Assembly: GCF_900454025.1 (NCBI RefSeq)
Contig: NZ_UGQM01000009.1
Location: 1-23,908, forward strand
From: Mycolicibacterium gilvum
GTDB taxonomy: Bacteria > Actinomycetota > Actinomycetes > Mycobacteriales > Mycobacteriaceae
Length of the DNA stretch: 23,908 bases
Direction of reading: 5' to 3'
Each line of letters opens with the position of its first letter. Positions within the stretch are counted from its first letter, which is position 1. The notes under the pieces are model-generated. The model did not search any database and was not told where the DNA came from. It saw only the letters and a program-made list of their open reading frames with translations. Made by a program: the position numbers and the translations under genes. Positions 1 to 23,908 of the stretch are shown piece after piece.

Positions 1-1259
1 ATGACCTCAACCGACCACGAATCCTGGGCAACCCAGACCTTCGGGCTACGCGTGCGCCACCGTTCCGGCACACCGTTGTTGACCGAGCTAGTCGCCCCCG
101 GATTGCGACGCAACCCCGGCGGGCGCACCTGCTGGTGTCGTCGGTGCTCGGCAAACACATCGCCGCCGACCCGCGTGACGTGATTGCTGCCGGCCACCAA
201 CTCGGGCGTGCCGTTGCCAGCCTGGGCCTCGGGGATGTCGACGTGCTGGGCATGGCCGAAACTGCGACCAGTCTCGGTCACTGCGTCGCCGACAACCTCG
301 ACGCGGCCATGTACCTGCACACCACCCGACGTCACGCACCGCCAAATATGATCTACGCCGAGTTTCAGGAGGGTCACTCGCACGCCACCGACCACACACT
401 GCAACCCAGCAGCGCGGACCTTTTCGCTCAACCGCGACCCATCGTGCTTGTCGATGACGAGATTTCCACCGGAAACACCGCGTTTGCGACAGTCGCTGCA
501 CTGCAACAGCTCCAGCACCGCGCCCATTATGTCGTCGCTTCACTTGTCGATGTCCGCAACGACACACACCGGCACGACGCCGCCGCCGCCGTCAGCAACA
601 AACTGCGCACCTCGGTGCACTTCGTCAGCCTGGCTCAAGGCGACGTCGATCAGCCGGCCGGGCTCATCGACGCCGTGTGCGCACTGAACCCACCAGTGTT
701 GAACACCCCCTCAGACCGCCCCCCCAGCACACCGAGTCGATTAACGCTGCCGTGGCCGGCCCACGTACCCGAAGGAGGGCGGCACGGCTTCCTGCGCCAG
801 GACCGCCCAGAGTTCGAAGAGGCCGTACTTTGGGCCTCGGAACACCTGCACTCATACCTGGACCCCAGCCGCCCAGTACTACTGGTCGGGCACGAAGAGC
901 TCATGTATCTGCCCCTCAGGCTTGCCGATCAACTGGCTCGACACGGCTTCAACACCCGTTTCCAATCGACCACTCGATCACCGGCCTACGTGCACAACCA
1001 CCCTGAGTATCCGCTGGGAACCGGATGGACATTCCCCGCCAGCGAGCCCGGCGAGACCTCGGCCCGGTTCCTCTACAACGGATGGCAAGCGCCGCCGCAC
1101 GTGCGGGTACAACTCGTGCTGCTCGTCGACCGCATCGCCGCCAGCGGCGATCTCACTGTCGGCGAGGTTCTCGCAGCCTCCGGCTACGACGTCATCATCG
1201 CCGAAGTCGACGGCCCGGACGCCACCACGCTCGCCGAGATCCGCGGGCGCCAGCAGTGA
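1..1259 (+). CDS. Phosphoribosyltransferase with C-terminal TRSP domain, apparent frameshift near 117
   Basis: This looks like the PRTase_2 plus TRSP protein of Ter stress clusters, which is predicted to transfer or release a phosphoribosyl group while making a nucleoside-like compound. Frame 1 gives the first 39 residues, ending RRNP. The family sequence then continues one frame back as RRAHLLVSSVLGKH, so the joined product has about 419 residues. The PRPP-binding signature IVLVDDEISTGNTA lies near residues 148-161, preceded by the EGHSHATDH stretch. The family-naming TTRSP motif is near residue 324, followed by FLYN. The shift falls in CCCC at 114-117 and would be repaired by one extra C. 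An internal ATG at 135 could give 374 residues but would lose the conserved N-terminus. The stop overlaps the next gene by 4 nt (GTGA). The family call is strong; the substrate is unknown. Confidence 0.85.
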   Translation, partial: DLNRPRILGNPDLRATRAPPFRHTVVDRASRPRIATQPRRAHLLVSSVLGKHIAADPRDVIAAGHQLGRAVASLGLGDVDVLGMAETATSLGHCVADNLDAAMYLHTTRRHAPPNMIYAEFQEGHSHATDHTLQPSSADLFAQPRPIVLVDDEISTGNTAFATVAALQQLQHRAHYVVASLVDVRNDTHRHDAAAAVSNKLRTSVHFVSLAQGDVDQPAGLIDAVCALNPPVLNTPSDRPPSTPSRLTLPWPAHVPEGGRHGFLRQDRPEFEEAVLWASEHLHSYLDPSRPVLLVGHEELMYLPLRLADQLARHGFNTRFQSTTRSPAYVHNHPEYPLGTGWTFPASEPGETSARFLYNGWQAPPHVRVQLVLLVDRIAASGDLTVGEVLAASGYDVIIAEVDGPDATTLAEIRGRQQ

Positions 1260-2368
1260 AACAACCCCTCACCGGCCCGACATTTGGAACTTACGCTGCC
1301 CACGAAGTCGGATGGCTCCTCACCGACCTATCCGATATGAGGCTCGAAGCGGCGACCGCTGACCGAGAGCGCGAAATTCAAAGCGGCCGCGCCCATTACG
1401 CGGAATCGTTGCCAATCGAGTATCAGCCTGATTCCGTCTACCTGGACCTGTTCGACAGTGTGCTACGCGAAACCGCGAATCGGCTCGCGGTCGCGGTCGG
1501 CTACCTCACTGAACTCGTCCTGGCCGAACGCGGGACAGACATCGCCCTGGTATCGCTGGCCCGCGCGGGGACCCCGATCGGCATTCTCATGCGCCGCTGG
1601 GCGGCCTCTCAACACAGGCTGACGCTACCTCACTACGCCGTGTCGATTGTTCGAGGACGAGGCATCGACACCTGCGCGCTGCGCTACCTGAGCACACACC
1701 ACGATCCAGCCCGAGTCGTGTTCGTCGACGGATGGACCGGCAAGGGAGCCATCACCCGGGAACTGTCAGACGCGATAACCGAACATGCTCACCGCACGGA
1801 GATCGTCTTCAATCCCGACCTCGCCGTGTTGGCCGATCCCGGCCACTGCGTCCGAACATTCGGCACCCGCGATGACTTTCTGATTGCCTCAGCCTGCTTG
1901 AATTCCACTGTGTCAGGCCTTGTCTCGCGCACGGTACTCAACCCCCGCGTCATTGGGCCCACCGATTTCCACGGAGCGAAGTTCTACCGCGATCTGCGCC
2001 CGGCCGACATGTCCAACGTGTTTCTCGATACTGTCAGCGCCCAGTTCGAGACTGCGGAAACCCAAGTCCGCCGAATGCGCGACACTGGGAATGATCAACA
2101 CCGCGAACCCACCTGGTCGGGCCTGACCACAGTGCAGCGGATTCAGCAGCAGTACGGGATCACCACCAGCAACTTTGTCAAGCCGGGCATTGGGGAAACC
2201 ACTCGTGTGCTGCTGCGCAGACTCCCGTGGCGCATCGTGGTACGGGATCCCGACGCCCCGGAACATCGTCACATCAGGTTGCTCGCCGAAGCGCGAAACG
2301 TCCCCGTCGTCGTCGACCCCGACCTCGCGTACGCCTGCGTGGGCCTGATCAAGGAGATCGCCGAGTGA
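1256..2368 (+). CDS. StiP-type phosphoribosyltransferase with C-terminal PELOTA RNA-binding domain
   Basis: A protein of 370 residues starting at GTG 1256, whose first bases overlap the stop of the preceding gene. The open frame extends further upstream, but that part is antisense-like and unlike the family. The family (PRTase_1, also annotated as cysteine protease StiP) is recognised from LARAGTPIG (residues 101-109), SIVRGRGID (130-138) and the PRPP-loop-like VVFVDGWTGKGAI (154-166). The last 65 or so residues, from NFVKPGIGETTRVLLRR, match the small PELOTA domain proposed to bind RNA. It is the second PRTase of the Ter biosynthetic module and is presumably translated coupled to the first. 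The protease name has little support in this sequence, and phosphoribosyl chemistry is the better guess. Confidence 0.87.
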   Translation: MKQPLTGPTFGTYAAHEVGWLLTDLSDMRLEAATADREREIQSGRAHYAESLPIEYQPDSVYLDLFDSVLRETANRLAVAVGYLTELVLAERGTDIALVSLARAGTPIGILMRRWAASQHRLTLPHYAVSIVRGRGIDTCALRYLSTHHDPARVVFVDGWTGKGAITRELSDAITEHAHRTEIVFNPDLAVLADPGHCVRTFGTRDDFLIASACLNSTVSGLVSRTVLNPRVIGPTDFHGAKFYRDLRPADMSNVFLDTVSAQFETAETQVRRMRDTGNDQHREPTWSGLTTVQRIQQQYGITTSNFVKPGIGETTRVLLRRLPWRIVVRDPDAPEHRHIRLLAEARNVPVVVDPDLAYACVGLIKEIAE

Positions 2369-3243
2369 AGGCCTCTGCCCTGATCGCCAGCGACCTAGAT
2401 CGCACCCTCATCTATTCCCACCGCTTCTTCGCCACCACTCCCCCACCCGAGGCATGTGTCGAAATCTACGACGGCGCAGCCATCTCCTTCATGACCGACA
2501 CCGCAATGCACGCTTTAACCGACTTCGCCGCGCAGCACATCGTGGTGCCGGCCACCACACGAACTGTGGCACAGTACCGCCGCCTTTCTCTTCCTGGAGG
2601 CCCGTACCCCTTCGCGGTAACCAGCAACGGCGGCTCAATACTGATCGATGGGGAACCCGACGACCGGTGGAACTCGACGGTTCGAGCACGGATTCGAGCC
2701 GACGGACCTGGGATCGACGTCATCGCTGCAGCGATGCGTGAACAGACCAGCGACGAATGGGTAAAAACCTTCAAGATGGCCGAAGAGTTGTTCTGCTACC
2801 TCGTCATTGACGAGGCCCGGCTACCCGCCGACTTCATGGCAACATGGGCGTCATGGTGTACGCCGCGCGGTTGGCGGGTCTCCCGGCAGGGGCGCAAGAT
2901 CTACACCGTGCCCCATAGCCTGTGCAAATCACGGGCTGTGGCCGAGATTCGCCACCGCCTCACCGAGTCCGGCCAACTCCACACCGACGCACCATTATTC
3001 GCCGCCGGTGATGGCGCTCTCGACGCCGAACTGCTGAGCTACGCCGATGCCTCCATCCGACCGGCTCACGGTGAGCTCCACTCTCTGGGCTGGACATCTG
3101 AGCGCACCACGGTGACCAAGGCCAGCGGCGCCTCGGCAGCCGACGAGATCGTGGCGTGGCTGCACCAGAGCGCCGAGCATACGAGATTTCCACCGTTGAA
3201 GAAAGCACCACATCAGTCCCCTATAACGAAAGGAACTGCGTGA
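2365..3243 (+). CDS. HAD-superfamily phosphatase of the Ter cluster
   Basis: A 292-residue HAD hydrolase. Start GTG 2365 overlaps the previous TGA by 4 nt and has a good ribosome site, AAGGAG at 2351-2356. Motif I is DLDRTLI at residues 10-16, with the nucleophile and acid/base aspartates both present. TSNGGSIL near residue 86 is the cap-side motif typical of Cof-like or sucrose-phosphatase-like HADs. AAGDGALDAELL near 212-223 is the motif IV metal site. A lysine around 133-136 (KTFKMAEE) and a second one near KSRAV are candidates for motif III. It probably removes a phosphate from the intermediate made by the two PRTases encoded upstream. The substrate cannot be read from sequence. Its stop overlaps the start of the double TerD gene. 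Confidence 0.85.
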   Translation: MKASALIASDLDRTLIYSHRFFATTPPPEACVEIYDGAAISFMTDTAMHALTDFAAQHIVVPATTRTVAQYRRLSLPGGPYPFAVTSNGGSILIDGEPDDRWNSTVRARIRADGPGIDVIAAAMREQTSDEWVKTFKMAEELFCYLVIDEARLPADFMATWASWCTPRGWRVSRQGRKIYTVPHSLCKSRAVAEIRHRLTESGQLHTDAPLFAAGDGALDAELLSYADASIRPAHGELHSLGWTSERTTVTKASGASAADEIVAWLHQSAEHTRFPPLKKAPHQSPITKGTA

Positions 3244-4424
3244 GTACGCAACTGAGTAAAGGGCAGAATGGGCCGGTGACCGCTGCCGACCTGGTGGCGT
3301 CAGTACAGCTCGCGGCGCCGGCTGACCTGTCGGCTCTGCTGGTGACCGACAACGGGAACGTACGCACGGACGCAGACTTTGTGTTCTTTAATCAGCCCAC
3401 TGGCCCCGGGGTGAGACTGGTTGCCGGGGCCACCGGCCAACCCGCCAGCCTCGCAGTCGCACTCAACGCCGTCCCCACTGACATTGCCCGAGTCCGCGTG
3501 GTCATCACACTTGATGATCCGAACTCTACCTTTGGAGCGACAGCCGCACCCGTAGCCCGGGTATCCGACACCACCGGCCACATCCTTTACGAGTACCGCA
3601 TCGACGGTCTCACCAGCGAATCGATCGTCATTGCGCTCGAGCTTTATCGCCGCAACGGAGCCTGGAAGGTGCGGGCCGTCGGCCAAGGCTACGCCGGCGG
3701 ATTCGCTGCTCTGGTAACCGACCACGGTGTCAGCGTCGATGATGCCCCGGCACCACCACCACCTCCCCCGCCGGCAGGACGCCCGACATTACCTCCGCCA
3801 CCGCCGGCTTCCTCACCGCCGACCGGTGGTGAAATCAGTCTGGTCAAAGGTCGAACCGTGAACCTCGCCAAGGGGCAACGTGTTTCTTTGCGCAAGGACG
3901 GCGGTGTCGCCCTGACACGAGTTCGTATGGGGTTGGGATGGGATCCGCTCAAACGCGGCATTTTCGGGGGCCGGGCGTCGAACATCGATCTCGACGCTTC
4001 AGCAGTGCTGTTCACCGGTCAGGAGCTGATCGACATCTGCTATTTCCGGCAGCTGAAGTCCAAAGACGGATCAATCAAGCATCACGGAGACAACCTCACC
4101 GGCGAGGGTGACGGGGATGACGAGACCATCTCCGTCGATTTGAGCCGAGTCCCCACTCACATCACCTCAGTGCTGTTCATTGTGACGTCCTACCGTGGCC
4201 ACACCTTCGATCAACTCAGCAACGCATTCTGTCGCCTCGTCGATGCGACGTCGAAGGCTGAACTGGCTCGCTATACCTTGCAAGGCAGCGGCATGCGCTA
4301 TACCGGCATGGTGATGGCCAAGATCTTCCGGTTGGGCGGCGAGTGGAAGTTACAAGCAATCGGGGAGGGAATGCAGGCCAAGCACCCCGGGCAAGCCGCT
4401 CCGCAACTCTCACGGTTCCTGTGA
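3240..4424 (+). CDS. Tandem TerD-TerD protein with proline-rich linker
   Basis: A 394-residue protein starting at GTG 3240, which overlaps the HAD stop; AAGGA at about 3229-3233 is the ribosome site. Two TerD-type domains are present. The first (residues 1 to about 165) contains VRTDADFVFFNQP and ends [17 protein letters not shown] linker of about 28 residues at 170-197 is nearly all Pro, Ala and Ser. The second domain (about 198-394) has the full calcium-binding signatures: NIDLDASA near residue 250 and GEGDGDDETI near 288. The first domain lacks the DLDASA-type acidic cluster, so only the second is likely to bind metal in the standard way. It is the last gene of the junction-spanning operon and probably links the biosynthetic enzymes to the membrane TerC/TerD assembly. 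No signal peptide is visible. Confidence 0.88.
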   Translation: MSTQLSKGQNGPVTAADLVASVQLAAPADLSALLVTDNGNVRTDADFVFFNQPTGPGVRLVAGATGQPASLAVALNAVPTDIARVRVVITLDDPNSTFGATAAPVARVSDTTGHILYEYRIDGLTSESIVIALELYRRNGAWKVRAVGQGYAGGFAALVTDHGVSVDDAPAPPPPPPPAGRPTLPPPPPASSPPTGGEISLVKGRTVNLAKGQRVSLRKDGGVALTRVRMGLGWDPLKRGIFGGRASNIDLDASAVLFTGQELIDICYFRQLKSKDGSIKHHGDNLTGEGDGDDETISVDLSRVPTHITSVLFIVTSYRGHTFDQLSNAFCRLVDATSKAELARYTLQGSGMRYTGMVMAKIFRLGGEWKLQAIGEGMQAKHPGQAAPQLSRFL

Positions 4425-7218: not shown

Positions 7219-7227
7219 GCCACCACC

Positions 7228-7720: not shown

Positions 7721-7722
7721 CG

Positions 7723-9728: not shown

Positions 9729-9732
9729 CAAC

Positions 9733-9770: not shown

Positions 9771-9815
9771 TGAACTACGCACCTACGTCTTCCTCGGCCT
9801 CGATTGTGGCGAAAC

Positions 9816-9892: not shown

Positions 9893-9956
9893 GCGCAAAC
9901 GGGGCCACTACGAGGAAACGGCGAAAAAAGCTGATCGCTTGAGAGGGAGTGAAGCG

Positions 9957-10260: not shown

Positions 10261-10267
10261 GGTGGGC

Positions 10268-10558: not shown

Positions 10559-10559
10559 A

Positions 10560-11289: not shown

Positions 11290-11378
11290 AACCCGAACGG
11301 TAGCCGTGTGAAAGGAGAGACGGAATGTGTGCGTGTCGGTACCAGGTACGTGGGCTTCTCTGCGTAAGGATCGGGTGC

Positions 11379-11576: not shown

Positions 11577-11627
11577 CGAATGCGCCAGGGGGCTCACTCT
11601 TCTCGTCTTGGCGGCGAGTCTCTTGGC

Positions 11628-11872
11628 AGATGTGACATCTGAATAGCTGGTGTGCGGAAACCCCGCTGACATGACGAAGGCCTCGCCGTAGCGAGGCCCT
11701 GGTCGAGGTTTTGAACCGAGTTCGCAGCTCGGTTCTGGGTCCGCACCCGATTCCCCGAAGGGACTGTCTTGCTGGACAGCTCTCACGGTAGCGCACGCCT
11801 GCCTGGCTTACCAGATAAGCCGCGCACCCAGTGTGCAAATCGTGACCTCATCAGTGCCCGATCACGTCGGGC
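11628..11872. other. Hairpin-rich non-coding region upstream of rep (candidate origin or control RNA)
   Basis: Six inverted repeats fall in 245 bp. AGATGT/ACATCT lies at 11628-11640. GGCCTCGC/GCGAGGCC has an 8-bp stem at 11679-11698. GAACCGAG/CTCGGTTC has an 8-bp stem at 11713-11735. CTGTC/GACAG lies at 11764-11779. GGCTTA/TAAGCC lies at 11805-11821. GCCCGA/TCGGGC lies at 11856-11872. No convincing gene covers the region, although an open frame from 11769 leads into rep. Such density just before a replication gene suggests an origin or a structured leader/antisense control RNA. The 11679 hairpin lacks a T run. Confidence 0.55.
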
Positions 11873-11936
11873 AAGCGGTACGTCGCCGACGCCGCTCGGC
11901 TCAGGTGTAGCTCCTGCTGCTCCTAGTCCGCATGTC

Positions 11937-13162
11937 GTGCGTGCGCTGGCGAACGAACGGCGCCGCGAATGGGTGCAGCGCGCCGGGGCTTGCGCACCGC
12001 GCGCACCGATGTGGACCAGTCGCGCTGGCTGGCTCGACGGTCTGCGCCAGTGGGCGCAGACACCGGCCCTGGGCCAGCTGTGCGCCGAGGAACGGGTGTC
12101 GATCACCTCGGCCACGCTGTTGTCGATCGCCGCGGTGATGGCCGAGCACGCCGATCACGCCACCGGCCGCCACGTCGCCGTCACACGCGCGACAATCGCG
12201 TCCCGGGTGGGTTGTGACGTGCGCACGGTGACGGCCGCCTGGCGGGTCCTACGGGTGTCACAGTGGGCCGTCGAGGCGCAGCGCGGCCACGGCTCACCAG
12301 GTACCCCCAGCGTCGGCCGCAGACCCTCGGTGTACCACCTGGTGCCGCGCCGCGAAGCACGTCCCGTGACCCGTCCGTTGTGCATGATTTCCACCTACCG
12401 CCGTCAGGCGGCGTTGGTCTTTCTTCTCCCGTAGGGAATTACTCACCAAGCGAGCGCGCAAGCGCGCCCGCCAACCGAATCTCCGATAACAAACCCAAAC
12501 CCCGACAAGCACCGCCGTGGCGCCGCACCGCGCGGCCGCTGGCCATCCAGCGGCTCGCCGCTGGGCTCGTGGCGAGCACGCAGGGTCTGGACCGCGCCCA
12601 CATCGGCGCCATCTGCGACGCGCTCACCGCCGCCGGCATCGACCCCGCGGTGTGGTCAGCGCGCGCGGTTAACGACGCGCTCAACGCCGACATGCGCGCC
12701 CGAGGAGCGACCTGGCCCGACCACATCGCCAACCCTGGCGCGTTCCTGCACAGCCGATTACGACGGCTGTCCTGGTCACCCCCCGAAACCCCGACAAAGG
12801 CCGGCGGCTCCGCCGCCGTCAGCATCGACCAGACGCCGCCACCGGTGGTGCTCACCGACGAGTCGCGGGCACGGATCGCTGCGGCCCGAGAAGAGATCCG
12901 CCGCGTGCTCACCGAGCGCGCTCAACGCACCCGCGGTGGGCGCACCAGCCGCACGCACGGTCAGCGACACCGCGATGGCATGCCGGTGGAGGCACGGCCC
13001 GGCGGCGCGATGAGTGCACCGTTGAGCGCCTGGTCGACGACGCGCCTAGTGGTTGCGAAACGGCGCGCTGACGTTCGGGCGAGACGCCAAAGTCAGCATC
13101 TCCAACCAACCCATCTTCGTCCTTCCCTGCCCGCATTTCCCGCACTGCCTCAGCTTCCCTGA
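11937..13162 (+). CDS. Plasmid replication initiation protein, apparent frameshift near 12365
   Basis: This resembles the Rep proteins of mycobacterial theta plasmids. The first frame contains VRALANERRREWVQRAG, AGWLDGLRQW and then VAVTRATIASRVGCDVRTVTAAWRVLR, a winged-helix/helix-turn-helix unit. It stops being family-like after PSVYHLVPRREARP. The next frame continues VHDFHLPPSGGVGLSSPVGNYSPS and PLAIQRLAAGLVASTQGLDR, then IGAICDALTAAGIDPAVWSA, ALNADMRARGATWPD and LHSRLRRLSW. One missing base, perhaps in the CCC runs at 12363-12372, would unite them to about 408 residues. GTG 11937 is my start guess; the frame is open further upstream, so the N-terminus may be longer. Because a plasmid needs Rep, a sequence error is likelier than a real break. 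Confidence 0.8.
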
Positions 13163-13260
13163 CGCCGCTCCCCTCCTTCCCATCTTCACCCACTCCGCCT
13201 CATTCCCGCCGTCCACTCCCGCTTCGCCTCCACCCACCACCGTTCTCACCACCATTAACC
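13101..13260 (+). other. C-rich, G-poor tract between rep and the relaxase gene (candidate rut site)
   Basis: By hand count this 160-nt stretch has about 54 percent C and 9 percent G on the plus strand. It spans the end of rep and the first part of the spacer. Such a C-over-G bubble is the hallmark of a Rho utilisation site, so Rho-dependent termination of the rep transcript before mobF is a reasonable reading. The asymmetry could also reflect transfer-related DNA. Confidence 0.45.
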
Positions 13261-13300
13261 ATATGGCACATTTGCACAAGTTTGTGCGATGCTGGTGGTG
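13247..13300. other. Nested inverted repeats upstream of mobF (candidate oriT or operator)
   Basis: Outer arms CACCACCA (13247-13254) and TGGTGGTG (13293-13300) enclose the palindrome CCATATGG (13259-13266) and the tight inverted repeat GCACAA-GT-TTGTGC (13274-13287). No gene is expected here, and the relaxase gene starts 79 bp downstream. Relaxases commonly bind an inverted repeat beside nic in front of their own gene, making this the best oriT candidate in the window. A repressor operator is the alternative. Confidence 0.5.
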
Positions 13301-13378
13301 CGGTTCGGTTTGAGCGCTCGTGCTTCGTGCGTATCGGGTGGTCCGGCTGCATTTTCGAGCAGGGTGTGGGGTGGTGTT

Positions 13379-16294
13379 GTGTTGACGATTGCGAAGTTGT
13401 CGCGGTGGTCGGTGAACTATTACAACGACACCGCCCGGGCGGTCGGGCAGGCCGTCAAAGACGCTCAGTCTGCCGGCGGTGGGTTGGCGGAGTATTACGC
13501 CGAACGCGACACTCGCACCCCGGTGTGGACGTGTGCCGGGGACACCGGTGCGGCCGCGGAGCTGGTGGGTTTAGCGGACGGTTCGCGGGCGGGTGGAGAT
13601 GCCGATCCCGACGTCGTGGCGCGCTGGCTCGATGAGGGTGTGGCGCCCTCGGGGGAGTGCGGCCGGGCGCACGGATCCGGTGGGGTGCATGGCTTTGATT
13701 TGACGTTCTGCGCCCCGAAATCGGTGTCGCTGGTGCGCGCGTTCGGCGGCGACGTCGCCGACAAAGCGGTCGCCGCGGCGCACGCCACCGCGATCGCTGA
13801 AGCGCTCGAATATTTGGCTGCGCATGCCGGATATACGCGGGTGCACAACCCGATAACCGGTGAAAAAGACCTTCAGAAATTGCCGGGGTTGGTCGCCGCG
13901 GCGTATCAGCACGAGACCTCGCGGGCGGGGGATCCGCATCTGCACACTCACGTGCTGGTCCCGAACCGTCAGGCCCGCCGTGATGGTCGGTTGGTGTCGT
14001 TGGATGGCACGTCGTTGTTCCATGAAGCTCGCGCGGCGGGCATCATCTACCAGGCCACGCTGCGTTATGAACTGCACCGTTTGGCGGGTGTGGAGTGGGG
14101 TCCGGTGGATCTGCGGACCGGGATGGCCGAGATCGCCGGCGTTGATCCGAAAAATCTTGCGGCGTGGTCGACGCGTTCGACCCAACTGCGGGAGTGGGCG
14201 GCCAACAATCTGACCGTGATTGACCCCGCCGAGGGGCTTTCGCAAGCGCAGTTGGCGGCCGCGCAGAAGGCCACCCGACCGCACAAACCTGAGCAGCTGG
14301 CGTGGTCGGAGTTGCGGGCCGGGTGGCTGGCAGACGGCAGGGGTTTCGGGATTGACCGGGCCGCGCAACGGGAGGCGCGTAGTGCCCGTGAACGTGCCGC
14401 CTCGAGAGCGGGGGTGCGTGTTGAGCGCACCGGTGTGGCGGTCGATCGGCGGGCGGTGGCGGCGATGGCCGCGCGGGCGGACAAGGCGGCGTTGACGCGC
14501 GCGGATCTGGTCGAGGTGATCGGCGCTCAACTCCCCGTGTTGACCGACGATGGCGCAGCCGCGGCGGCCGGCGGCGGATCGATCACCGGGGCGGGTGTGC
14601 GGATGCCTCGGCAGGTCATCGAGGAGTGCGTTGATGCGGTCGGGATGCGGCTGTCCGGGCCGCGGTTGGCCCATCAACGCGAAGGCTCGGAACGCTTCAC
14701 CGTGGACCGGATTCTCGCTGAGGAAGTGGCGGTGCTCGACCTCGTCGACGCCCGCGATTCGCGGGCCGCGGTGTGGGTGCGCGATCACCGCGATCTGCAG
14801 GCCACGCCGTGGTCGGCGGGAGGGGCGGCGTTGTCTGATGAGCAGGCTCGGGTGGTGCGCAACATCGCCATCAGCCCGTGGTTGGTGCAGCCGTTGAGCG
14901 CGCCGGCCGGCGCCGGTAAGACCACTTCGCTGCGCACCCTGCGCCGCGTCGCGAAGACACGCCACAGTGCGCGGGTGATCGTCATGGCGCCGACCGGCAA
15001 GGCCGTCGATGTCGCCCTGGGCGAGGGCGCTGGGGACACCGGGTACACCATCGCCTCGGCCCTGCAGCAGCTCGCCGAGGGCAGTCTGTCGCTGACGCAT
15101 CACGACCTCGTGGTGGTCGATGAGGCCGGGATGGTCGGTACCGATGACTTGCGCCGTTTGTTGAGCGCCACCACCGCGGCGGGCGCCAAAACCGTGCTGG
15201 TGGGCGACGCCCACCAATTGGCCCCGGTCAAGGCGCGCGGCGGGATGTTCGCCCAACTGTGCGAGGATCTGCCCTGGACCCAGCGGCTGACCGAGGTATG
15301 GCGGATGCGCGACCCGGCCGAGCGCAGCGCCTCATTGGCGCTGCGTGACGGTGGGCCGGCACCGGTGCGCCGCGCGGTGGGCTGGTACCGCGACCACGAT
15401 CGGCTGCACACCGGAGACCCCATCGCGATGGCCGCCGACGCGTTCGAGGCATGGCGCACTGACCACGCCGCCGGCATCGACAGCCTGCTGGTGGCCGACA
15501 CCGTGGAGATGACCGACGCCCTGAATCGGCGCATCCACGACGACGTCACCGCCGCGGACGAGCCGACAGTCCCTGCGGCACGCGGCCAGCAGGTCGCTCG
15601 TGGCGAGGTGATCATCACCCGCCGCAACGATCCCGCCATCGAGGTGTACGACGCCCACGACGTGAAACAGCGGCTCACCGAGGCGCCGGTGCGCAACGGG
15701 CAACGCTGGCAGGTCATCGGTGTCGACCCCGACCACCAGCGCATCGCCGCCCGCCGTATCGGCGACGGCGCGCGGGCAGTATTCGCCGGCGCCTACCTGA
15801 CCGAACACGTCACCCACGGTTACGCGGTCACCGTGCACTCAGCCCAAGGCGTCACCGCCGAAACCACGCACGCGATGCTCGGGGAGAACGCCAGCCGCAA
15901 CCTGCTCTACGTCGCCATGACCCGCGGCCGTGCAGCCAATTACGCCTACCTCTACCAACGCACCACCGGGGAAGCCGACCATCAGCACGCCACCCCCGAG
16001 ACGGGAGTGCACGTCGCCCACCGCGGCACCAGTGCGCAGGCCGCCCGACTGGTGCGCGAGGTGATCGGGCGCGACGAACCCGCCCGCACCGCCCACCAGA
16101 GCGCCGCCGACACTCCCGCCGAGCTGCTGCCTGACCGCGTTGCGAGTCTGCTCGCCCGCCGCGACCGAAATGTTCTGCAACGCCGCACCGTGCACCAAAA
16201 GACTCACCGCGCCCTCGACGACCGCGCCCGCGGTGCCGATCGCTCCCGCGAGCAGCAAAGACACCGCGACCAGGGATACGACCTCAGCCTCTAG
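13379..16294 (+). CDS. MobF-family conjugative relaxase-helicase, short form
   Basis: A 971-residue protein starting GTG 13379, giving [13 protein letters not shown] 13382 is possible, and the frame further upstream lacks family sequence. The TrwC-type relaxase domain has the catalytic tyrosine pair in [10 protein letters not shown] (Tyr14/15) and the three-histidine metal site PHLHTHVLV near residues 187-191. The RecD/TraI-like helicase follows, with Walker [11 protein letters not shown] near 508, Walker [10 protein letters not shown] near 579, [25 protein letters not shown] near 819 and [11 protein letters not shown]. It would nick oriT and unwind the transferred strand. Many actinobacterial MobF proteins are nearly twice as long; this one ends soon after the helicase core with a basic tail. 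No coupling or secretion genes accompany it. Confidence 0.92.
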
Positions 16295-16642: not shown

Positions 16643-17098
16643 ATGGGATTCTGGGATCAATTGCGGGCGAGGACATCCGAGTTAAACGATCAGCTGCAGG
16701 TGAAGACTGCCCAGTTCAAGAACAAAGAGTTCGCTAACGGCGCAATGGCGATGTGCGCGCTGGTCGCCGCCGCCGATGGGTCGATTGATCCTACGGAACG
16801 ACAGAAGACGGCGGCTTTGATTATGAGTAACCAATCGCTGTCAGTCTTCGATGCCGACGACCTGCGGCAGAAGTTCGATTGGTTCTGTGACAAGCTCAAC
16901 GGCGATTTTGATTTCGGCAAAGTCGAGGCCACGGCCACGATAGGGAAGTTGAAGTCGAAACCGGAGCAGGCGCGGGCAGTCGTTCAGATCGGCATCATCA
17001 TTGGCGGTGCGGACGGATCATTCGATCAGTACGAGAAGGCCGCTGTGAAAGACGTGTGTTTTGCCGTTGGTATCGACCCGTCGGAATTCGACCTCTAA
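16643..17098 (+). CDS. terB: TerB-family tellurite resistance protein
   Basis: A 151-residue TerB protein preceded by GAGGAA a few bases before ATG 16643. The fold has two repeated four-helix halves, each carrying an acidic metal-binding turn: AADGSIDPTERQ (ADGSID at 44-49) and GGADGSFDQYEK (ADGSFD at 123-128). MGFWDQLRARTSELNDQL is the typical N-terminus of the short form. TerB is a cytosolic, membrane-associating metal sensor that contacts TerC and TerD proteins. It is transcribed toward the leftward TerD/TerC operon and separated from the rest of the Ter genes, next to the transfer genes. Confidence 0.93.
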   Translation: MGFWDQLRARTSELNDQLQVKTAQFKNKEFANGAMAMCALVAAADGSIDPTERQKTAALIMSNQSLSVFDADDLRQKFDWFCDKLNGDFDFGKVEATATIGKLKSKPEQARAVVQIGIIIGGADGSFDQYEKAAVKDVCFAVGIDPSEFDL

Positions 17099-17175: not shown

Positions 17176-18201
17176 CTAGCCCAGGGCCGCCAGTGCCTCT
17201 CGGAGCCCCGGGTAGGTCGGATCTTCTGCCAGGATCTTTTCCAGACCCTTGCGGGCGGCCGCCTTGCGGCGCTGGACGAGATCGACCTGCACCCGTTCCA
17301 GGAGGGCTCGATGGCGCACAGCAGCCGCCCTACTGCGAACCCGAAGTGCCTGTGCGAAGCTCTCGCGGGCGGCGTCATGAAAACCCTGGTGTGCGAATGC
17401 TCGACCGCGTAGTGCCAGTAGCAGAGCGGTCGCGTCGTCATCGTTGCCAACACCATTCGTGAGGTCGATAACTTCTTGATGTCGGTCCGCGCAGCTATAC
17501 AGTTCCCCCAGAGACAATGCGGCATGTGCGGTAGGCCGAGCCCGTTCAACGGTCCAGATGGCTATATCAAGGTCGCCGGCACGTTGGTGAAGTTCGGCTG
17601 CAGCCAGCAGGACCACATCGTCATGCAGGTGCAACTCAGCGGTCACCCCGGGAACAATTTCTACCGGCCAAGTTCGGTCGAAAAGGTACGTGGTGGTGAA
17701 GTGTCGGATTGGGTCGGTGATGGATTGGACCGCGGCCCAACCGAGAAGCGTGCGCGCGCGTTCTTGTGCTGCTTCGTCGCCGTCGCCGAACTCAAAGTGC
17801 AACAAGCCTTCCAGCGTCGCCGCTATGACTCGGACGTGAGGTGAGCTGCGGGCATGCTTACGGGAGATGTTGGGGAAGTCCCCGGGGATCGTGGAGGTCA
17901 GGATCGCGAACAGGTCTTTTTCCCATGACGGTGCGAACATCCCCGGTGCCGGCGATCGAGGCGTGGGTGGCGCGGCCGGCGGATTCTGGTTGCGGCTGTG
18001 AGGACGTGAGCTTCCGGGTCGAAGTGTGGATTGGTGTGACAGCCCGGTCCCCGGGATCGACAGAGTGCGGCTGACTCGGCCGTTGGCGTGACGGGTGACC
18101 CGCATGCCTTTCCCGCCGACCGAGTAACCCAGTCCGCGGGAACTGACATTGAGGCGCACACCAGGAACGACCTTGATGGACTTGCTCAACCTAAAACCCA
18201 T
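17176..18201 (-). CDS. DUF4236 protein with C-terminal helical repeat region
   Basis: A 341-residue protein that starts at ATG 18201 with MGFRLSKSIKVVPGVRLNVSSRGLGYSVGGKGMR, a clear DUF4236 domain (about residues 1-55). GAGG a few bases upstream supports this start. A Pro/Ser-rich linker follows. The remaining 240 or so residues are helical and repeat-like (VLLAAAELHQRAGDLDIAIW, ALRGRAFAHQGFHDAARESFAQAL, GLEKILAEDPTYPGLREALAAL), as in TPR proteins. It begins only 7 bp after the TerD stop and is the last gene of the leftward Ter operon. DUF4236 has no known activity; a scaffold role is inferred from the repeats. Confidence 0.8.
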   Translation of the reverse strand: MGFRLSKSIKVVPGVRLNVSSRGLGYSVGGKGMRVTRHANGRVSRTLSIPGTGLSHQSTLRPGSSRPHSRNQNPPAAPPTPRSPAPGMFAPSWEKDLFAILTSTIPGDFPNISRKHARSSPHVRVIAATLEGLLHFEFGDGDEAAQERARTLLGWAAVQSITDPIRHFTTTYLFDRTWPVEIVPGVTAELHLHDDVVLLAAAELHQRAGDLDIAIWTVERARPTAHAALSLGELYSCADRHQEVIDLTNGVGNDDDATALLLALRGRAFAHQGFHDAARESFAQALRVRSRAAAVRHRALLERVQVDLVQRRKAAARKGLEKILAEDPTYPGLREALAALG

Positions 18202-18208
18202 CGTGGCC

Positions 18209-18835
18209 TCAGATTTCATAGCCGGCGGGGACCGGCGGGTTGTTCCAGTCCACGGCTGGTGTCGGGGTTTGGGATGGGTCCGTTGGGTTGGGCGTGGACG
18301 GCGATTCGTCGTCGACCGTGACACCGAAATCTCTTGCTAGGCCCGCGAGTCCGTCGTGATAACCCTGCCCCACCGCGCGTGCCTTCCACCCCCCGCGCCG
18401 ATAAATCTCGAACGCTACGGCTGCTGTCTCCACGGTGAGGTCGATCATCGTGAATGTCGCTAGCGACGTACCGCCGGCATCGAGGATGGTTGCAGTCACA
18501 GCACCAAGCTCGACTAAGCGATGTCCGCTGTCGACGCTCAAAACAACCGCGATAGCGTCGATGTCGGCGGCTGCGGCTACGTCGGCGAGGTTGATTGCAA
18601 TTCTGTCTTCGAATCCGTCACCGGCGTGGCGCTTGCCGAGATACTTTACCGACCCGTCGACTGACTCGGCCTGGTTGTAGAAGATGAAATCGTCGTCAGT
18701 GCGCACTTGTCTGCCGCGCAGAAGCAGTGCTGAGAGGTCGGCGTCGACATCACCGAAAGATGACCATCGACAACGGATTTCGGCAACAGAGGCCAAGATG
18801 GGCATGTTCTCGCCTTTGCGCAGCGCAATACCCAC
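18209..18835 (-). CDS. TerD-family protein with proline-rich tail
   Basis: A 208-residue TerD protein. GTG 18835 (VGIALRKGENMPIL) is chosen because AAGGAA lies 7-8 nt upstream and the longer frame would be antisense-like. Landmarks are VRTDDDFIFYNQAESVDGSVKYLG, then DRIAINLADVAA and the family end GGWKARAVGQGYHDGLAGLARDFGVTVDD. The acidic DLDAS-type cluster is only partly kept (DVDADLSALLL). After the domain comes a tail of about 30 residues rich in Pro, Thr and Ser, ending PAGYEI. It lies 37 bp after the TerA-like gene. Confidence 0.88.
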   Translation of the reverse strand: MGIALRKGENMPILASVAEIRCRWSSFGDVDADLSALLLRGRQVRTDDDFIFYNQAESVDGSVKYLGKRHAGDGFEDRIAINLADVAAAADIDAIAVVLSVDSGHRLVELGAVTATILDAGGTSLATFTMIDLTVETAAVAFEIYRRGGWKARAVGQGYHDGLAGLARDFGVTVDDESPSTPNPTDPSQTPTPAVDWNNPPVPAGYEI

Positions 18836-18872: not shown

Positions 18873-19547
18873 TTACTTTCTGCCTGCAGACCAGCGCATG
18901 CCCCACCGGTAGGCCTTGTCGAGGTCGGACTGACTGCCGTTGATGTACTTGACTTCTCGGGTGACGTCGATTCCTGCACCGGTGTTCGTCAGCAAAGCGA
19001 TGGCGCAGATCCGTGCGTTGTTGTTCGTTGAATCCAGCTTTACCTCAACCTGTGGCCCGGCCGTCGGGAACAGCGTGACCACACCATCGACAGCGGCCCA
19101 GTTGGGGGCGCCCTCGTAGATCATCGCGAAGATCAGAATTCGCTTGAACGCCTGCGGCTGCGACAGGTCGATGTGCATGTTTTCGCCGCCGACGGCGCTA
19201 CCGGTGCGATCATCTCCGTCGAGCTGAATGTGCGGCGCACCATGCAACGATCCGAAGGCGTTACCGAGTGCCTGAACCACACCTTTGTCGCCGTTGGACA
19301 GCTCGTAGAGACATCCCAAGTCGAGGTCGACGCCACCGCTGGCGCCGCCGGCCAGCTTGGCGAGAAAACCTGCTTTCTGCTGACCCCGCGACCAGTTCAG
19401 GTTGACCCGCATGGCCCCTTGCTGTTGTCCGGGCTTGGTGAGACTCACGGTGGGGGCCTGTTTGGTCAGACTGACCTTGCTGAGATTCACCCCGCCCGGT
19501 GTGGGTCCAGCGGCTGCGGAAGGGCGCCGGGTGTAGTCAATTGCCAT
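18873..19547 (-). CDS. TerA-like TerD-superfamily protein
   Basis: A 224-residue protein with GAGGAG 4-5 nt before ATG 19547. An N-terminal region of about 40 residues has the repeated LTK motif (VNLSKVSLTK, TVSLTKPG). It leads into a TerD-superfamily domain with VDLDLGCLYELSNGDKG and LDGDDRTGSAVGGENMHIDL, the acidic calcium-binding positions of the family. The C-terminal half (LIFAMIYEGAPNWAAVDGVVTLFP, then YINGSQSDLDKAYRWGMRW) is characteristic of TerA/TerF-type proteins rather than short TerD. It is downstream of the TerC-like gene on the same strand and likely part of a membrane-linked Ter complex. Confidence 0.87.
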   Translation of the reverse strand: MAIDYTRRPSAAAGPTPGGVNLSKVSLTKQAPTVSLTKPGQQQGAMRVNLNWSRGQQKAGFLAKLAGGASGGVDLDLGCLYELSNGDKGVVQALGNAFGSLHGAPHIQLDGDDRTGSAVGGENMHIDLSQPQAFKRILIFAMIYEGAPNWAAVDGVVTLFPTAGPQVEVKLDSTNNNARICAIALLTNTGAGIDVTREVKYINGSQSDLDKAYRWGMRWSAGRK

Positions 19548-19609: not shown

Positions 19610-20755
19610 TCAACTTATCGGCGAAAGTGTCTGGTTGCGTTCGTCGGCTGCGATACGGCGGTTGCGGAGCACGCTGGAAATGAGGGCGGCGGCAATGAGA
19701 ACGACACCGACCAATCCAGTAAGGACTTCATTGACATGGACACCCAACGACACAAGCAGAATTACAGCCAGCGCACCAATAGCCCAGTGCGCACCGTGCT
19801 CGAGGTACACATACTCGGCCAGAGTTCCCTTGCGCACAAAGAATATGGTGATAGAGCGGACGAACATCGCTCCGATGAAGCCCAGGCCGAGAGCGATGAT
19901 GATGGGATCGCTCGTGATCGCGAACGCGCCGATCACCCCGTCGAACGAGAACGATGCGTCGAGAACTTCGAGGTAGAGGAACAGGAAAAAGCCGGCCTTG
20001 CCCGTCGCGGTAGCCAACTGGGTGGGTCCAGAGTTCCCTGTCCGCGGTGCCTCGCCGGCATCTTCGGCGAGGGCCTCTTCACGCAGCTCGTCGTCGTCGA
20101 TTTCGAACATGGAGCCCAAACCGTTGACGACGATATAGGTGATCAACCCCAAGGCGCCTGCAACCATCACTGTGGCACGGTGCGCATCGTCGGCGAGAAG
20201 CTCAGCGGCGAGCACGAGGGCCAGCAGCGCGACCACAACAGCGAGCTGGTCGAGCTTTCCGGCGCGACCCAAGGGGCGTTCCAGCCAAGCCAGCCAGTGA
20301 ATGTCACGTTCGGCGAAGATGAAGTTGAGGAACAGCAACATCAAGAACATGCCGCCGAATGCAGCAATCTGCGGGTGTGCTGCGGTTAACGCTGTTTCAT
20401 AACTTGGAGAGCCATCGGGGAAGTACGCCTCGCCGTCGGCCGGCGGGTCGAGCGCAACGTCGAGCGCCCGCACCGGATCCAGGCCAGCAGTCACCCAGAC
20501 GACGGCGAGTGGGAAGACTAGCCGCATCCCGAAAACCGCGATCAGGATGCCAACGGTGAGGAACATCTTCTGCCAGAATTCGCTCATCCGCCGCAAAACA
20601 GTAGCGTTGATAACTGCGTTGTCGAAGGACAGTGAAATCTCGAAGACGCCCAGTATTGCGCAGAGGATGAACGCTTCGACGCCACCGTAAAGGTAGGCAA
20701 TGATCAACGACACCACCGTGACGACGATCGAGAGTCCGAAGGTGCGAATAACCAC
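19610..20755 (-). CDS. TerC-like integral membrane protein (DUF475)
   Basis: A polytopic membrane protein of about 381 residues, with some eight or nine hydrophobic spans. The conserved acidic membrane motifs are EISLSFDNAVINATVL near the N-terminus and EVLDASFSFDGVIGAFAI in the second half, as in TerC/Alx-type metal transport or sensing proteins. LTVGILIAVFGMRLVFP and GGMFLMLLFLNFIF are the strongest spans. A cytosolic loop, FEIDDDELREEALAEDAGEAP, is strongly acidic. GTG 20755 gives the family-like start MVIRTFG. TTG 20764 is closer to the AAGGA site and may be used instead. TerC anchors the Ter proteins at the membrane. Confidence 0.9.
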   Translation of the reverse strand: MVIRTFGLSIVVTVVSLIIAYLYGGVEAFILCAILGVFEISLSFDNAVINATVLRRMSEFWQKMFLTVGILIAVFGMRLVFPLAVVWVTAGLDPVRALDVALDPPADGEAYFPDGSPSYETALTAAHPQIAAFGGMFLMLLFLNFIFAERDIHWLAWLERPLGRAGKLDQLAVVVALLALVLAAELLADDAHRATVMVAGALGLITYIVVNGLGSMFEIDDDELREEALAEDAGEAPRTGNSGPTQLATATGKAGFFLFLYLEVLDASFSFDGVIGAFAITSDPIIIALGLGFIGAMFVRSITIFFVRKGTLAEYVYLEHGAHWAIGALAVILLVSLGVHVNEVLTGLVGVVLIAAALISSVLRNRRIAADERNQTLSPIS

Positions 20756-20834: not shown

Positions 20835-21410
20835 TTAGACGTTGACGCCGTAGTCGCGGGCGATTCCGGACAGCCCAGAGGCATACCCCTGGCCAACAGC
20901 GCGGAACTTCCATTCGGCGCCATTCCGGTACAGCTCACCGAACACCATGGCGGTCTCCGTTGAGGCGTCCTCGGAGAGGTCGTAGCGGGCCAGTTCGGTG
21001 CCGTTAGCGCGATCCACCACGCGGATGAACGCGTTCTGTACCTGGCCAAAGGATTGGCTGCGGCTTTCAGCTTCGTAGATCGACACCGGGAAGAAGATGT
21101 TGGTGATGTTGGGCGGAGTGGCGGCCAGGTCGACGTTGATGGCCTCATCGTCGCCGTCGCCCTGCCCGGTCAGGTTGTCACCGGTGTGTTCAATGGCTCC
21201 TTCAGGGCTCCGCAGATTATTGAAGAAAATGAAGTGCTGGTCGGAGAGCACCTTCTTGTTTTCACCGCAGGCGATGGCGCTGGCGTCGAGATCGAAGTCC
21301 GTTCCAGTGGTGCTGCGAACATCCCAGCCGAGACCTACGGTCACCGCAGTCAGGTTAGGTGCCTGCTTGGTCAGCGAAACGTTGCCGCCCTTGGTCAGAC
21401 TGACGCCCAT
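20835..21410 (-). CDS. terD: TerD-family calcium-binding stress protein
   Basis: A 191-residue canonical TerD/TerE protein, [20 protein letters not shown]. It has all the family signatures: [62 protein letters not shown] and the end [25 protein letters not shown]. The aspartates of DLDASA and GDGDDE form the calcium sites. AAAGGTAG about 8 nt before ATG 21410 is the ribosome site. It is the first gene of the leftward Ter operon and diverges from the biosynthetic operon at 21544. Confidence 0.95.
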
Positions 21411-21543: not shown

Positions 21544-22728
21544 GTGTCCGGTCGCTGGCTCAGGCTCACCCGCCGCCCGCGCACCGAAACGCGCCCACCG
21601 GACGTAGCGGCCACGCTCACTACCGCTTTCCTTGACCTCGACCACCGTCAGGGAATTGCCCAGGCTGCCGTCGCCGCGGCCGCCGCGCTGCATCCAGCCT
21701 CATCAATCCCGGAGGAATGGGAGTCGGTGGCACAACATTGCTACTCCGCCATGGCCGCCTACCTTCCACTGACCGCGGCAAACGGAGAGCCCACACAGCC
21801 GGCCGCGCAAGTTGCCAGGCACCTGGCCGAGGCGGCAGCAGCAGTCGACGCGTTCTACTCGCGTCACCGTTACATCCTGGACAACGCGATTGGCGCGGTG
21901 AGCGCGGCCGCTGCGGCCGCCGCCGCCGCTACCACAGCAGCCCGCGCCGCTGACGAGCGCCTGGCTGGCATTGACGCTCCGTGGCGCGACTACCCGTCTG
22001 TCCACGCGGCCCACCTGCTGATGCAGTCAGCAACAGCCGAGCTGTCAGCGGCGCGCAACCGCTCTGATCTGATCGCGACTCAAAACAGCAGTGAGCAACT
22101 CCGCACCGCGGCCGCAGCGCTCAATGACGTCCTCGACCTGGCCCCAGGCCGCGCCGAGGAAGCGCGCAGGGCAGTCACCTCTGTGCGAACTCGCCTCGAA
22201 GCACTCAAGACCCGCACCGAAGGCATCAGCGCCGCAGTATCAACCCTGCTACGAGAATTTCATGCCGATAGTTCTGCCGACCTGCTTGGCAATGAACACA
22301 GGTGCCGTGTCGACCTCAATCGGGCAGAGGGCCTCCTGCAGCAGGCCGAGACGGCAGCGCGCGACGGCGATCCCGAAACGGCGCTGAACCTGGTTGGGAT
22401 GGCACGAACCGTTCTTGCTACCGCCGCCGAGCATGTCGACGCGCCGGCGCAACGACTGGCGTTGTTGCGCAGCGTGCGCAGCGACCCACAGCAGGACGAA
22501 CAGCGTGCACGTTTCCGTCTGCGCGACGCCCAGCGGCTCGCTGTCGATCGAGGCGCGCAGGCCCAGTGGGGCGCCGCACTCGACGCTCAGGCGTTGCGCA
22601 TCGACCGCATCGTGGCCACCCTCAGCGGCCGGCATCCCGACTATTGGCGATACCACTTCGAACTCAACGATGTGGCACAGTTCGTCGCAGGAATCGTTGC
22701 TCGCATCCGACAGGAGTCCGCACGGTGA
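21544..22728 (+). CDS. Alanine-rich helical protein of the Ter operon, function unknown
   Basis: A 394-residue protein, first gene of the junction-spanning Ter biosynthetic operon. GTG 21544 is preferred over TTG 21541 because of the TACGAT box 6 nt upstream. The sequence is almost entirely alpha-helical and Ala/Glu/Arg-rich, with a run of alanines near residue 120 (GAVSAAAAAAAAATTAA). It likely forms long coiled coils or helical bundles. The C-terminal part ends in HPDYWRYHFELNDVAQFVAGIV, which looks conserved. Its stop overlaps the CitE-like gene by 4 nt (GTGA). I recognise no enzymatic motif; a structural or scaffold role is inferred. Confidence 0.75.
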   Translation: MSGRWLRLTRRPRTETRPPDVAATLTTAFLDLDHRQGIAQAAVAAAAALHPASSIPEEWESVAQHCYSAMAAYLPLTAANGEPTQPAAQVARHLAEAAAAVDAFYSRHRYILDNAIGAVSAAAAAAAAATTAARAADERLAGIDAPWRDYPSVHAAHLLMQSATAELSAARNRSDLIATQNSSEQLRTAAAALNDVLDLAPGRAEEARRAVTSVRTRLEALKTRTEGISAAVSTLLREFHADSSADLLGNEHRCRVDLNRAEGLLQQAETAARDGDPETALNLVGMARTVLATAAEHVDAPAQRLALLRSVRSDPQQDEQRARFRLRDAQRLAVDRGAQAQWGAALDAQALRIDRIVATLSGRHPDYWRYHFELNDVAQFVAGIVARIRQESAR

Positions 22729-23908
22729 CCGACGGCGAGGTCGCCACAACCCTGGGTATCCAACACTTCCAACACCTGAATGCTTCACAACAGGCTCAGC
22801 TGTTCTGGAAGCCACCTGAGGTGATCTCGCTGCACGACGAACCACGCCTGATCGCGACCGCCCTGGGCGCAACCCTCTACATCCCCGCCGACCGTCCCGA
22901 TCTCGCCGCCACGGTCACACGCCGCGCCAGCGAGGGCATCTGTTCGATGGTGCTTGACCTCGAAGACGCCGTTGACGATATGCACGCCGACGCCGCGATG
23001 CATAACGTCGTGACTGCTCTCGACGAGCTGGCCGCCGATCCACTCGCCACCATGGTGTTCGTGCGTGTCCGTAGCTACGACTGCATCCCCCAAATCGCCG
23101 ACAGACTTACAGTCGGAGCGCATGCTCTAGCTGGGTTCGTCATTCCGAAATTTGAAGCGGACACCGGCGCACGGTATCTCCGCCAAACTGAGGACGCCGC
23201 GTCCGCGTTGTCACGTCACCTGTACTGCATGCCGGTGTTGGAATCTGAGCGCATCCTGTTCCAGGAGACCCGTGACGCCGAACTTACCGCCCTGGTCGAC
23301 CTGTTGGACGAGCACCGCCAAACCGTGCTCGCAGTTCGTGTCGGCGCCACCGATATGTGCGGGTCGCTGGGAATCCGACGGGATCGCGATCACACAATCT
23401 ACGACGTCAAGGTGGTCGCCGACGTCCTCGCCGCCATTATCAACCGGTTTGGCCGTCCCGACGGGACCGGATTCGTGGTTACCGCACCAGTGTGGGAATA
23501 CTTCGCCGACCACGAACGACTCTTCCGACCGTTGTTGCGCGCCACCCCATTTCGCGACCACGACGCAGTGCGGTTCCGCGACATGCTGGTCAGTCGGGAT
23601 TTGGATGGCCTGCTACGCGAAATTAGCCTCGACCGAGCTAACGGACTGCTCGGTAAGACCATTATTCACCCCACCCACGCCGCCCCCGTGCATGCGCTAT
23701 CGGTCGTCACTCACGAAGAGTTCCGCGACGCTTCCGATATCGCCGCATCAGACACCGGTGGCGTGAGCCGGTCGCATTACCGCAATAAGATGAACGAGTC
23801 GCGGCCACACCGTGTTTGGGCCCACCAAGTGTTGCAACGTGCCCGCGTGTTCGGGGTGGCCAACGACGGCGTGACATTCGTCGACTTCTTGACAGCATTG
23901 GCCGGTCG
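22725..23908 (+). CDS. CitE-like (HpcH/HpaI family) aldolase/lyase of the Ter cluster
   Basis: The frame starts at GTG 22725, overlapping the preceding stop, and runs off the right edge without a stop. If the molecule is circular it ends at TGA on bases 2-4, giving 395 residues and an ATGA overlap with the PRTase gene. Landmarks are ATLYIPADRPDL near the N-terminus, then MVLDLEDAVDD with the metal-binding acidic residues of CitE-type TIM barrels. AGFVIPKFE and MPVLESERILF follow. After these come VRVGATDMCGSLGIRRD and NGLLGKTIIHPTHAAP, the typical C-terminal barrel motif. Such enzymes cleave or form C-C bonds beside a carboxyl or acyl-CoA group. The Ter version is predicted to act in the nucleoside-like metabolite pathway; the substrate is unknown. 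Confidence 0.9.
   Translation, partial: MTDGEVATTLGIQHFQHLNASQQAQLFWKPPEVISLHDEPRLIATALGATLYIPADRPDLAATVTRRASEGICSMVLDLEDAVDDMHADAAMHNVVTALDELAADPLATMVFVRVRSYDCIPQIADRLTVGAHALAGFVIPKFEADTGARYLRQTEDAASALSRHLYCMPVLESERILFQETRDAELTALVDLLDEHRQTVLAVRVGATDMCGSLGIRRDRDHTIYDVKVVADVLAAIINRFGRPDGTGFVVTAPVWEYFADHERLFRPLLRATPFRDHDAVRFRDMLVSRDLDGLLREISLDRANGLLGKTIIHPTHAAPVHALSVVTHEEFRDASDIAASDTGGVSRSHYRNKMNESRPHRVWAHQVLQRARVFGVANDGVTFVDFLTALAG

Follow-up and report, generated by a model that had tools for sequence, protein, structure and literature searches.

The window analyzed here, that is, the whole stretch of 23,908 bp of DNA from Mycolicibacterium gilvum, is a small plasmid of the MobF type that belongs to the pGD25-3 family and carries a further mobile version of the Ter module standard in Mycobacteriales. 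The module is unusually compact and mobile, while its gene set is itself ordinary for Mycobacteriales. We favor, as the somewhat more probable reading, a mobile version of the usual Mycobacteriales Ter pathway, in which PRPP would be consumed to make a ribosylated product that TerD, TerA, and TerB would sense at TerC.

A Ter module fills half of a small circular plasmid

The window is one entire contig of an 11-contig genome of 6,432,993 bases, the largest contig seen being 6,148,425 bases long. It aligns with plasmid pGD25-3 of Mycobacteroides abscessus GD25 (NZ_CP063323.1; 23,599 bp) at 97.9% DNA identity, with 99% of the window covered; given this near-identity, neither the plasmid nor its cargo is new. 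The 1,155-base aldolase gene matches pGD25-3 with 100% DNA identity and no gap across both window ends, which supports a circular molecule. The Ter block extends from terB (position 16643) through the origin to the end of a gene for a double TerD protein (position 4424) and takes up 11,690 of the 23,908 bp (49%), as the initial annotation had estimated in calling it nearly half of the plasmid. That annotation also placed a whole synthesis-plus-sensor module on a small mobilizable plasmid, and this is borne out: the TrwC/MobF relaxase that a mobilizable MobF plasmid requires is encoded by an open frame of 971 aa. The relaxase and Ter genes are as follows.

13379..16294, forward strand: MobF/TrwC relaxase-helicase, 971 aa, intact (PF08751, E 6.5e-61; 100% DNA identity to mobF of pGD25-3)
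16643..17098, forward strand: TerB (PF05099, E 3.9e-26)
17176..18189, reverse strand: DUF4236 protein (PF14020, E 2.3e-18; TPR models below cut-off)
18209..18835, reverse strand: second TerD-family protein (PF02342, E 3.8e-31)
18873..19547, reverse strand: TerA-like protein (47% identity over 205 aa to residues 182-383, the C-terminal part, of Klebsiella TerA)
19610..20755, reverse strand: TerC/DUF475 integral membrane protein (PF04332, E 1.7e-130; PF03741, E 5.9e-14)
20835..21410, reverse strand: TerD (PF02342 match at 20850-21410; PDB 3ibz, E 5.9e-96)
21544..22728, forward strand: all-helical protein of 394 aa, opening the synthesis arm (long-helix model, weakly like spectrin/EzrA-type repeats)
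22758 through the origin to 4 (window part 22758..23908), forward strand: HpcH/CitE-like aldolase (C-C_Bond_Lyase, PF15617, E 1.8e-114)
1..1259, forward strand: PRTase_2 + TRSP gene (PF15609, E 3.2e-51, and PF12500, E 1.4e-26, on the open part)
1256..2368, forward strand: StiP + PELOTA_1 protein, 370 aa (PF11202, E 2.6e-102; PF15608, E 2.6e-34)
2365..3243, forward strand: HAD phosphatase, HAD-IIB type (motifs, weak family matches)
3240..4424, forward strand: double TerD-domain protein (PF02342, two stretches, E 2.5e-78)

In a Pfam scan of 10 proteins, 7 scored above the cut-off, with best E values from 2.3e-18 to 1.8e-114; the helical, HAD, and TerA-like proteins had no family above it. These seven matches, together with a gene order that recurs elsewhere, exclude chance as the source of the Ter locus. 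The sensor side comprises TerD-family, TerC/DUF475, and TerB proteins and a TerA recognized only by its resemblance to the C-terminal region of Klebsiella TerA; the synthesis operon comprises C-C_Bond_Lyase, PRTase_2-TRSP, and StiP-PELOTA_1 genes by Pfam and an HAD gene by motif and weak matches. The leftward TerD (20835..21410) is 63% identical to Klebsiella TerD and lies near solved TerD structures, and all four PF02342 matches above the cut-off are on the plasmid contig. The ter loci of M. alvei and Klebsiella also contain DUF4236 genes.

The synthesis arm had been described as six overlapping genes. The genes, their order, strand, and coordinates stand; taking the start codons annotated for pGD25-3, overlap (4 nt) is found at four of the five junctions, the helical and aldolase genes being separated by 29 nt, and the PRTase is not one open gene. 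The 4-nt overlaps suggest that translation may be coupled across these four junctions.

The plasmid family and its mosaic structure

Compared with pGD25-3, the relaxase and Ter block are essentially identical: every 500-base step from the relaxase across the Ter genes and on to about 8.67 kb has 98 to 100% identity. The partition and replication segment, from about 8.67 to about 13.5 kb, is only 87 to 96% identical in the printed steps, which leave out the last bin (about 11169-11576), and it has a 320-base insertion. This drop points to a mosaic origin: the cargo and relaxase may have become linked to replication segments that had diverged, or the replication segment itself may have been swapped.

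The available text of the pGD25-3 paper lists that plasmid as mobilizable, with 5.2 copies, whereas PLSDB types it as nonmobilizable; neither “tellur” nor “TerD” occurs in the main text as available. Plasmid 3 of Mycobacterium sp. djl-10 (CP016643) is called very similar to pGD25-3 in the available part of that paper (PMC8092301). It measures 26,982 bp, beside a 6,395,946-bp chromosome, and we rejected its identity with the window on account of this size. Since the window differs in size from both plasmids, it probably represents a third plasmid of the pGD25-3 family.

A Ter operon on a plasmid is in itself long known, and plasmid-borne Ter synthesis genes are common: StiP is found on 2,566 of 72,556 PLSDB plasmid records, 40 of which are typed as mobilizable. 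A 24-kb carrier is rare. In an even sample of 60 StiP plasmids taken down the PLSDB ranking, 59 measured at least 91 kb, pGD25-3 being the sole exception, and carriers of 48.7 and 59.5 kb are also present among the best PLSDB matches listed.

The six-gene set is standard in Mycobacteriales

The initial annotation raised the possibility that the module is a minimal form of the pathway and proposed looking for its exact six-gene set in other neighborhoods. The six genes recur in the same order and on the same strand in 21 of 26 Mycobacteriales loci from other genera and in none of 54 other loci, and the core four (aldolase, PRTase, StiP, and HAD) occur in order in 25 of the 26 and in 48 of the 54 other actinobacterial loci, these counts being based on 80 actinobacterial loci kept from at least 583 confirmed by the StiP search. 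Three of the five Mycobacteriales misses (L020, L023, and L030) are truncated by contig ends, and no helical gene was detected in the other two (L014 and L025). All eight other StiP-bearing mycobacterial loci, seven of them read directly and one via the M. alvei plasmid record, likewise have the six genes in this order and TerC and TerD in divergent orientation. Given this recurrence (21 of 26 and 8 of 8 loci), the set is not stripped down, and we rejected the minimal-pathway proposal. One similarity search in this work scored only the 7,995 candidates with the most shared words, and its best 120 are listed. StiP occurs in 9 of 396 genomes drawn from the host's larger genus, with the window's own genome counted; such a patchy presence in mycobacteria would fit spread as cargo.

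As for the partner genes, no TelA (PF05816) was detected in the host genome, in a search in which 3 of 14 controls were positive. ATPgrasp_Ter had no match on the plasmid contig and one sub-cut-off match on the chromosome, the model being unspecific (12 of 14 controls above the cut-off), and TerY_C matched neither the host genome nor any control. TelA, TerY_C, and ATP-grasp partners accompany Ter loci in some lineages, and we do not use them to define such a locus. One Mycobacteriales version does have vWA genes, since a Prescottella plasmid carries them. The commonest neighbor family was AIM24 (13; Pfam, 39 of 50 flanking ORFs at seven mycobacterial loci), in a scan for which 25 of the 36 matched families are listed, so that a rare partner may be missed. 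The annotation of pGD25-3 contains no AIM24 gene.

Other known loci share parts of this arrangement. The Lactococcus plasmid pFI430 (59 kb, MOBP) resembles the window in being mobilizable, in its aldolase-PRTase-StiP-hypothetical order, and in having three TerD genes and DUF475; it differs in carrying YceG and a “toxic anion resistance” gene, and the helical gene is absent from its annotation. We take this “toxic anion resistance” gene to be of the TelA type. The 304-kb plasmid pJCM12272 of Mycolicibacterium alvei has the same divergent layout and six-gene order, with a StiP 74.6% identical to that of the window; in contrast to the window, it is large, carries AIM24 genes (three) and encodes another long TerD protein, and no terB is annotated in the 29 kb of its ter locus shown. 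The enterobacterial ter locus of Klebsiella p3 (NZ_CP122384.1) likewise pairs a divergent synthesis operon with a terABCDE-type arm and has the PRTase, StiP, aldolase, and DUF4236 genes in common with the window, but it includes ATP-grasp, vWA, and TerY-C genes in another gene order, and its StiP is only about 36% identical.

A frame break in the first PRTase gene

Relative to pGD25-3, where the gene is intact, the PRTase_2-TRSP frame of the window is broken near its 5' end: the first 38 or so codons and the remainder lie in different frames, and the open part is a GTG-started 374-aa ORF from position 135. The DUF1524 and Abi genes, intact in pGD25-3, are frame-broken in the window as well, as apparently is the replication gene. 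The initial annotation makes no mention of the broken PRTase frame.

If the break is real, the plasmid would have lost or altered one synthesis step, and the pathway could be dead or truncated in this strain, yielding no complete product. We consider this rather unlikely, although the break lies in a gene without any base substitution relative to pGD25-3, and the PRTase and StiP form one protein in 64 of 91 loci, so that loss of one should matter. The single-base indels in the PRTase and DUF1524 genes both sit in short homopolymer runs; the region from 13577 through the origin to 5668 has two substitutions but three indels; and a broken replication gene would be unexpected in a plasmid that is maintained. 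The excess of indels over substitutions, their homopolymer sites, and the apparent break in the replication gene suggest an assembly error, and an assembly indel therefore appears at least as likely as a real mutation, and probably the likelier of the two.

A proposed PRPP-consuming pathway

The favored reading treats the Ter module as accessory cargo of the plasmid and its right-hand operon as a PRPP-consuming pathway, the steps of which we infer from fold, families, and gene order. The aldolase would prepare or cleave a precursor, PRTase_2-TRSP and StiP would act as a pair to attach phosphoribosyl groups, and the HAD enzyme would take off a phosphate, leaving a small ribosylated (nucleoside-like) compound. 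At a TerC membrane complex, the TerD, TerA, and TerB proteins would then sense this compound, or calcium, making the cell more tolerant of metal, envelope, or phage stress. Such a pathway is supported by the Pfam families to which most key genes belong and by the conserved catalytic motifs. For the original Ter gene survey by Anantharaman and colleagues, we follow the summaries of others. A nucleoside-like product is a published prediction in the available text of two papers (PMC7824862 and PMC8115787), the former describing Ter as synthesis of a nucleoside-like signal, ligand binding by TerB and TerD, and a membrane response through TerC. The available part of the Klebsiella study reports the same two-operon layout and a need for terC in tellurite resistance (PMC8115787).

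A different division of labor is suggested by the same study, in which, as far as its available text goes, the Klebsiella terZ-F genes alone were sufficient to confer tellurite resistance on E. coli (PMC8115787); the synthesis arm may thus not serve tellurite resistance. The working part would then be only the TerD/TerC/TerA/TerB arm, handling metal at the membrane by metalation or export of the TerC type, with the synthesis operon a conserved passenger or reserved for a separate condition. TerC proteins of Bacillus are reported to metalate exported enzymes in the available text of PMC10550928, and the broken PRTase frame of the window is in keeping with a dispensable operon. We nevertheless judge this unlikely: a useless passenger would decay, yet the core four genes stay together in 25 of the 26 Mycobacteriales loci with conserved active sites, and two TerC-family genes are already present on the host chromosome.

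The Abi_C and GmrSD_C-Excalibur genes that adjoin the module suggest another role, namely, anti-phage or anti-plasmid defense in the plasmid's own interest, beside an Abi-like gene and an HNH nuclease. A review, in its available part, describes Ter genes of jumbo phages and a role of Ter in fertility inhibition by plasmids (PMC7824862), and pGD25-3 is listed among Abi-bearing plasmids. Both flanking genes, however, are frame-broken in the window, the available parts of the pGD25-3 papers give no plasmid-specific phage phenotype, and PADLOC matched none of 10 proteins (the six synthesis-arm proteins, with the open part of the PRTase, one leftward TerD, two Abi pieces, and a DUF1524 piece). Defense as the main function thus seems distinctly unlikely.

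StiP as a candidate ribosyl transferase

Within the favored PRPP pathway, the initial annotation spoke of two different PRTases. This agrees with our results, for PRTase_2-TRSP by its Pfam family and for StiP by its predicted fold, against a database name of cysteine protease. The StiP model (pLDDT, 87.5; pTM, 0.90) has a predicted type I PRTase fold with a C-terminal L7Ae/Pelota-like domain. Its matches in structure searches include PyrR/HGPRT, and the best structural Z scores, 12.2 and 11.0, are to CriT of Bcs3 and the T. composti ribofuranosyltransferase (PDB 8a0c and 7shg). The TM-scores of the top Foldseek rows are low (0.27 by query, about 0.53 by target), and the best 50 rows of each of two structure searches are mainly PRTases, lists of a kind that do not exclude a protease fold. 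For the structure alignments, sets of 61 and 54 sequences were selected from among the matches.

By sequence, a profile search against PDB chains gave no solved-structure match for StiP at E values up to 10, the CriT/gPRT relation included, and the open part of PRTase_2 had none either; the chemistry proposed for both therefore rests on fold, family, and motifs. PRTase_2 has weak PRTase-family matches and a conserved PRPP loop, VDDE..TG.T (n = 85). The corresponding StiP loop, VDGWTGKG (n = 91), has one acidic residue and lacks the vicinal acidic pair, so the StiP claim extends to the fold and a PRTase-like mode rather than to membership among classical nucleobase PRTases. CriT also lacks the adjacent acidic pair, according to the available text, and the CriT and T. 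composti chemistries described there pair a PRPP transferase with an HAD phosphatase; StiP, too, adjoins an HAD gene. The HAD protein has weak, sub-cut-off matches to HAD-IIB/MPGP models (NCBIfam) and a PDB match to trehalose phosphatase (E 8.6e-7), and its DxDxT and GDxxxD motifs are conserved (n = 90 and 89, respectively).

PRTase_2 and StiP lie in one continuous frame in 64 of the 91 loci and in separate frames in 25, with no usable pair in the remaining 2. StiP and HAD are separate in 90 of 91; for the aldolase and PRTase, the corresponding count is 84 of 91, and the other loci lack a usable pair. The 64 fusions come mostly from Streptomyces and Nocardia and so are not independent events; all eight other mycobacterial loci have separate genes, like the window. 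The fusions suggest that PRTase_2 and StiP probably act together in one process.

StiP thus looks like a PRTase-fold enzyme, perhaps a PRPP-dependent ribosyl transferase rather than a protease. A more specific and quite speculative version, to which we assign little likelihood, is that the Ter product is something other than a classical nucleoside: StiP would be a CriT-like, PRPP-dependent O-phosphoribosyltransferase, its Pelota/L7Ae domain would present an RNA or RNA-like acceptor, the HAD enzyme would remove the 5'-phosphate, and PRTase_2-TRSP would make or load the first ribosyl group. That StiP is the cysteine protease of its database name, and that the operon includes regulated proteolysis, we consider highly improbable, even though the Pfam description and the NCBI product name speak for it, as do two residues of the family, Cys214 (near-invariant, 0.98 of 91) and His239 (invariant).

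These results suggest that “cysteine protease StiP,” the usual name in databases, is misleading. A concrete proposal for a two-step reaction follows from the predicted PRTase fold of StiP, the PRTase_2-StiP fusions, and the neighboring HAD gene, and the part most worth following may be this enzymology, with StiP as a putative ribosyl transferase coupled to PRTase_2 and HAD. If the RNA-acceptor version were true, stress would be answered by ribosylating RNA or a small acceptor. A 24-kb plasmid with the full module offers a convenient natural unit for study of the predicted Ter product.

Mosaic structure and assembly quality

Comparison at the DNA level with pGD25-3, a near-identical plasmid of Mycobacteroides abscessus GD25, indicates that the window plasmid is a mosaic. 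The replication/partition segment (8670-13450) is 87-96% identical to its counterpart, whereas the remaining window is 98-100% identical; the drop is sharply bounded, with one border beside the relaxase gene and the other in parA, and the segment carries a 320-base insertion near 10147. The replication gene looks frame-broken, because it is spread over three frames relative to the 354-aa Rep protein of pGD25-3. Taken together with the breaks in the PRTase, DUF1524 and Abi genes, the broken frame points to indels introduced by assembly error.

Replication gene and genes flanking the Ter block, compared with pGD25-3
4461-5521, GmrSD_C/HNH protein carrying an Excalibur domain at its C terminus, frame-broken
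5800-6622, Abi_C protein, frame-broken
6622-7218, resolvase-type serine recombinase, protein 100% identical
12009-13071, replication gene, three frames

Recurrent neighbours and possible partners of ter loci

GmrSD_C was also found in 2 of the 39 flanking ORFs scanned in other mycobacterial ter loci. AIM24-family genes repeatedly adjoin mycobacterial ter loci (L087, L100-L106), accounting for 13 of the 39 scanned ORFs, and three such genes lie in the Mycolicibacterium alvei plasmid locus (L087).

StiP, the predicted PRTase-fold protein of the Ter block, is 41.6% identical to a StiP encoded on MT836648.1 (hit H81), a 15-kb record from human faeces named 'Bacteriophage sp.'

The ter locus of a Prescottella equi plasmid (L090) contains two vWA-domain genes (6763-8085 and 13985-15367), one of them between the HAD and TerD genes; thus, some Mycobacteriales versions of the Ter system do have vWA partners. 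Genes encoding DUF4236 are present in the ter loci of the window plasmid (17176-18189), M. alvei and a Klebsiella plasmid (L088), and DUF4236 may therefore be a general Ter partner.
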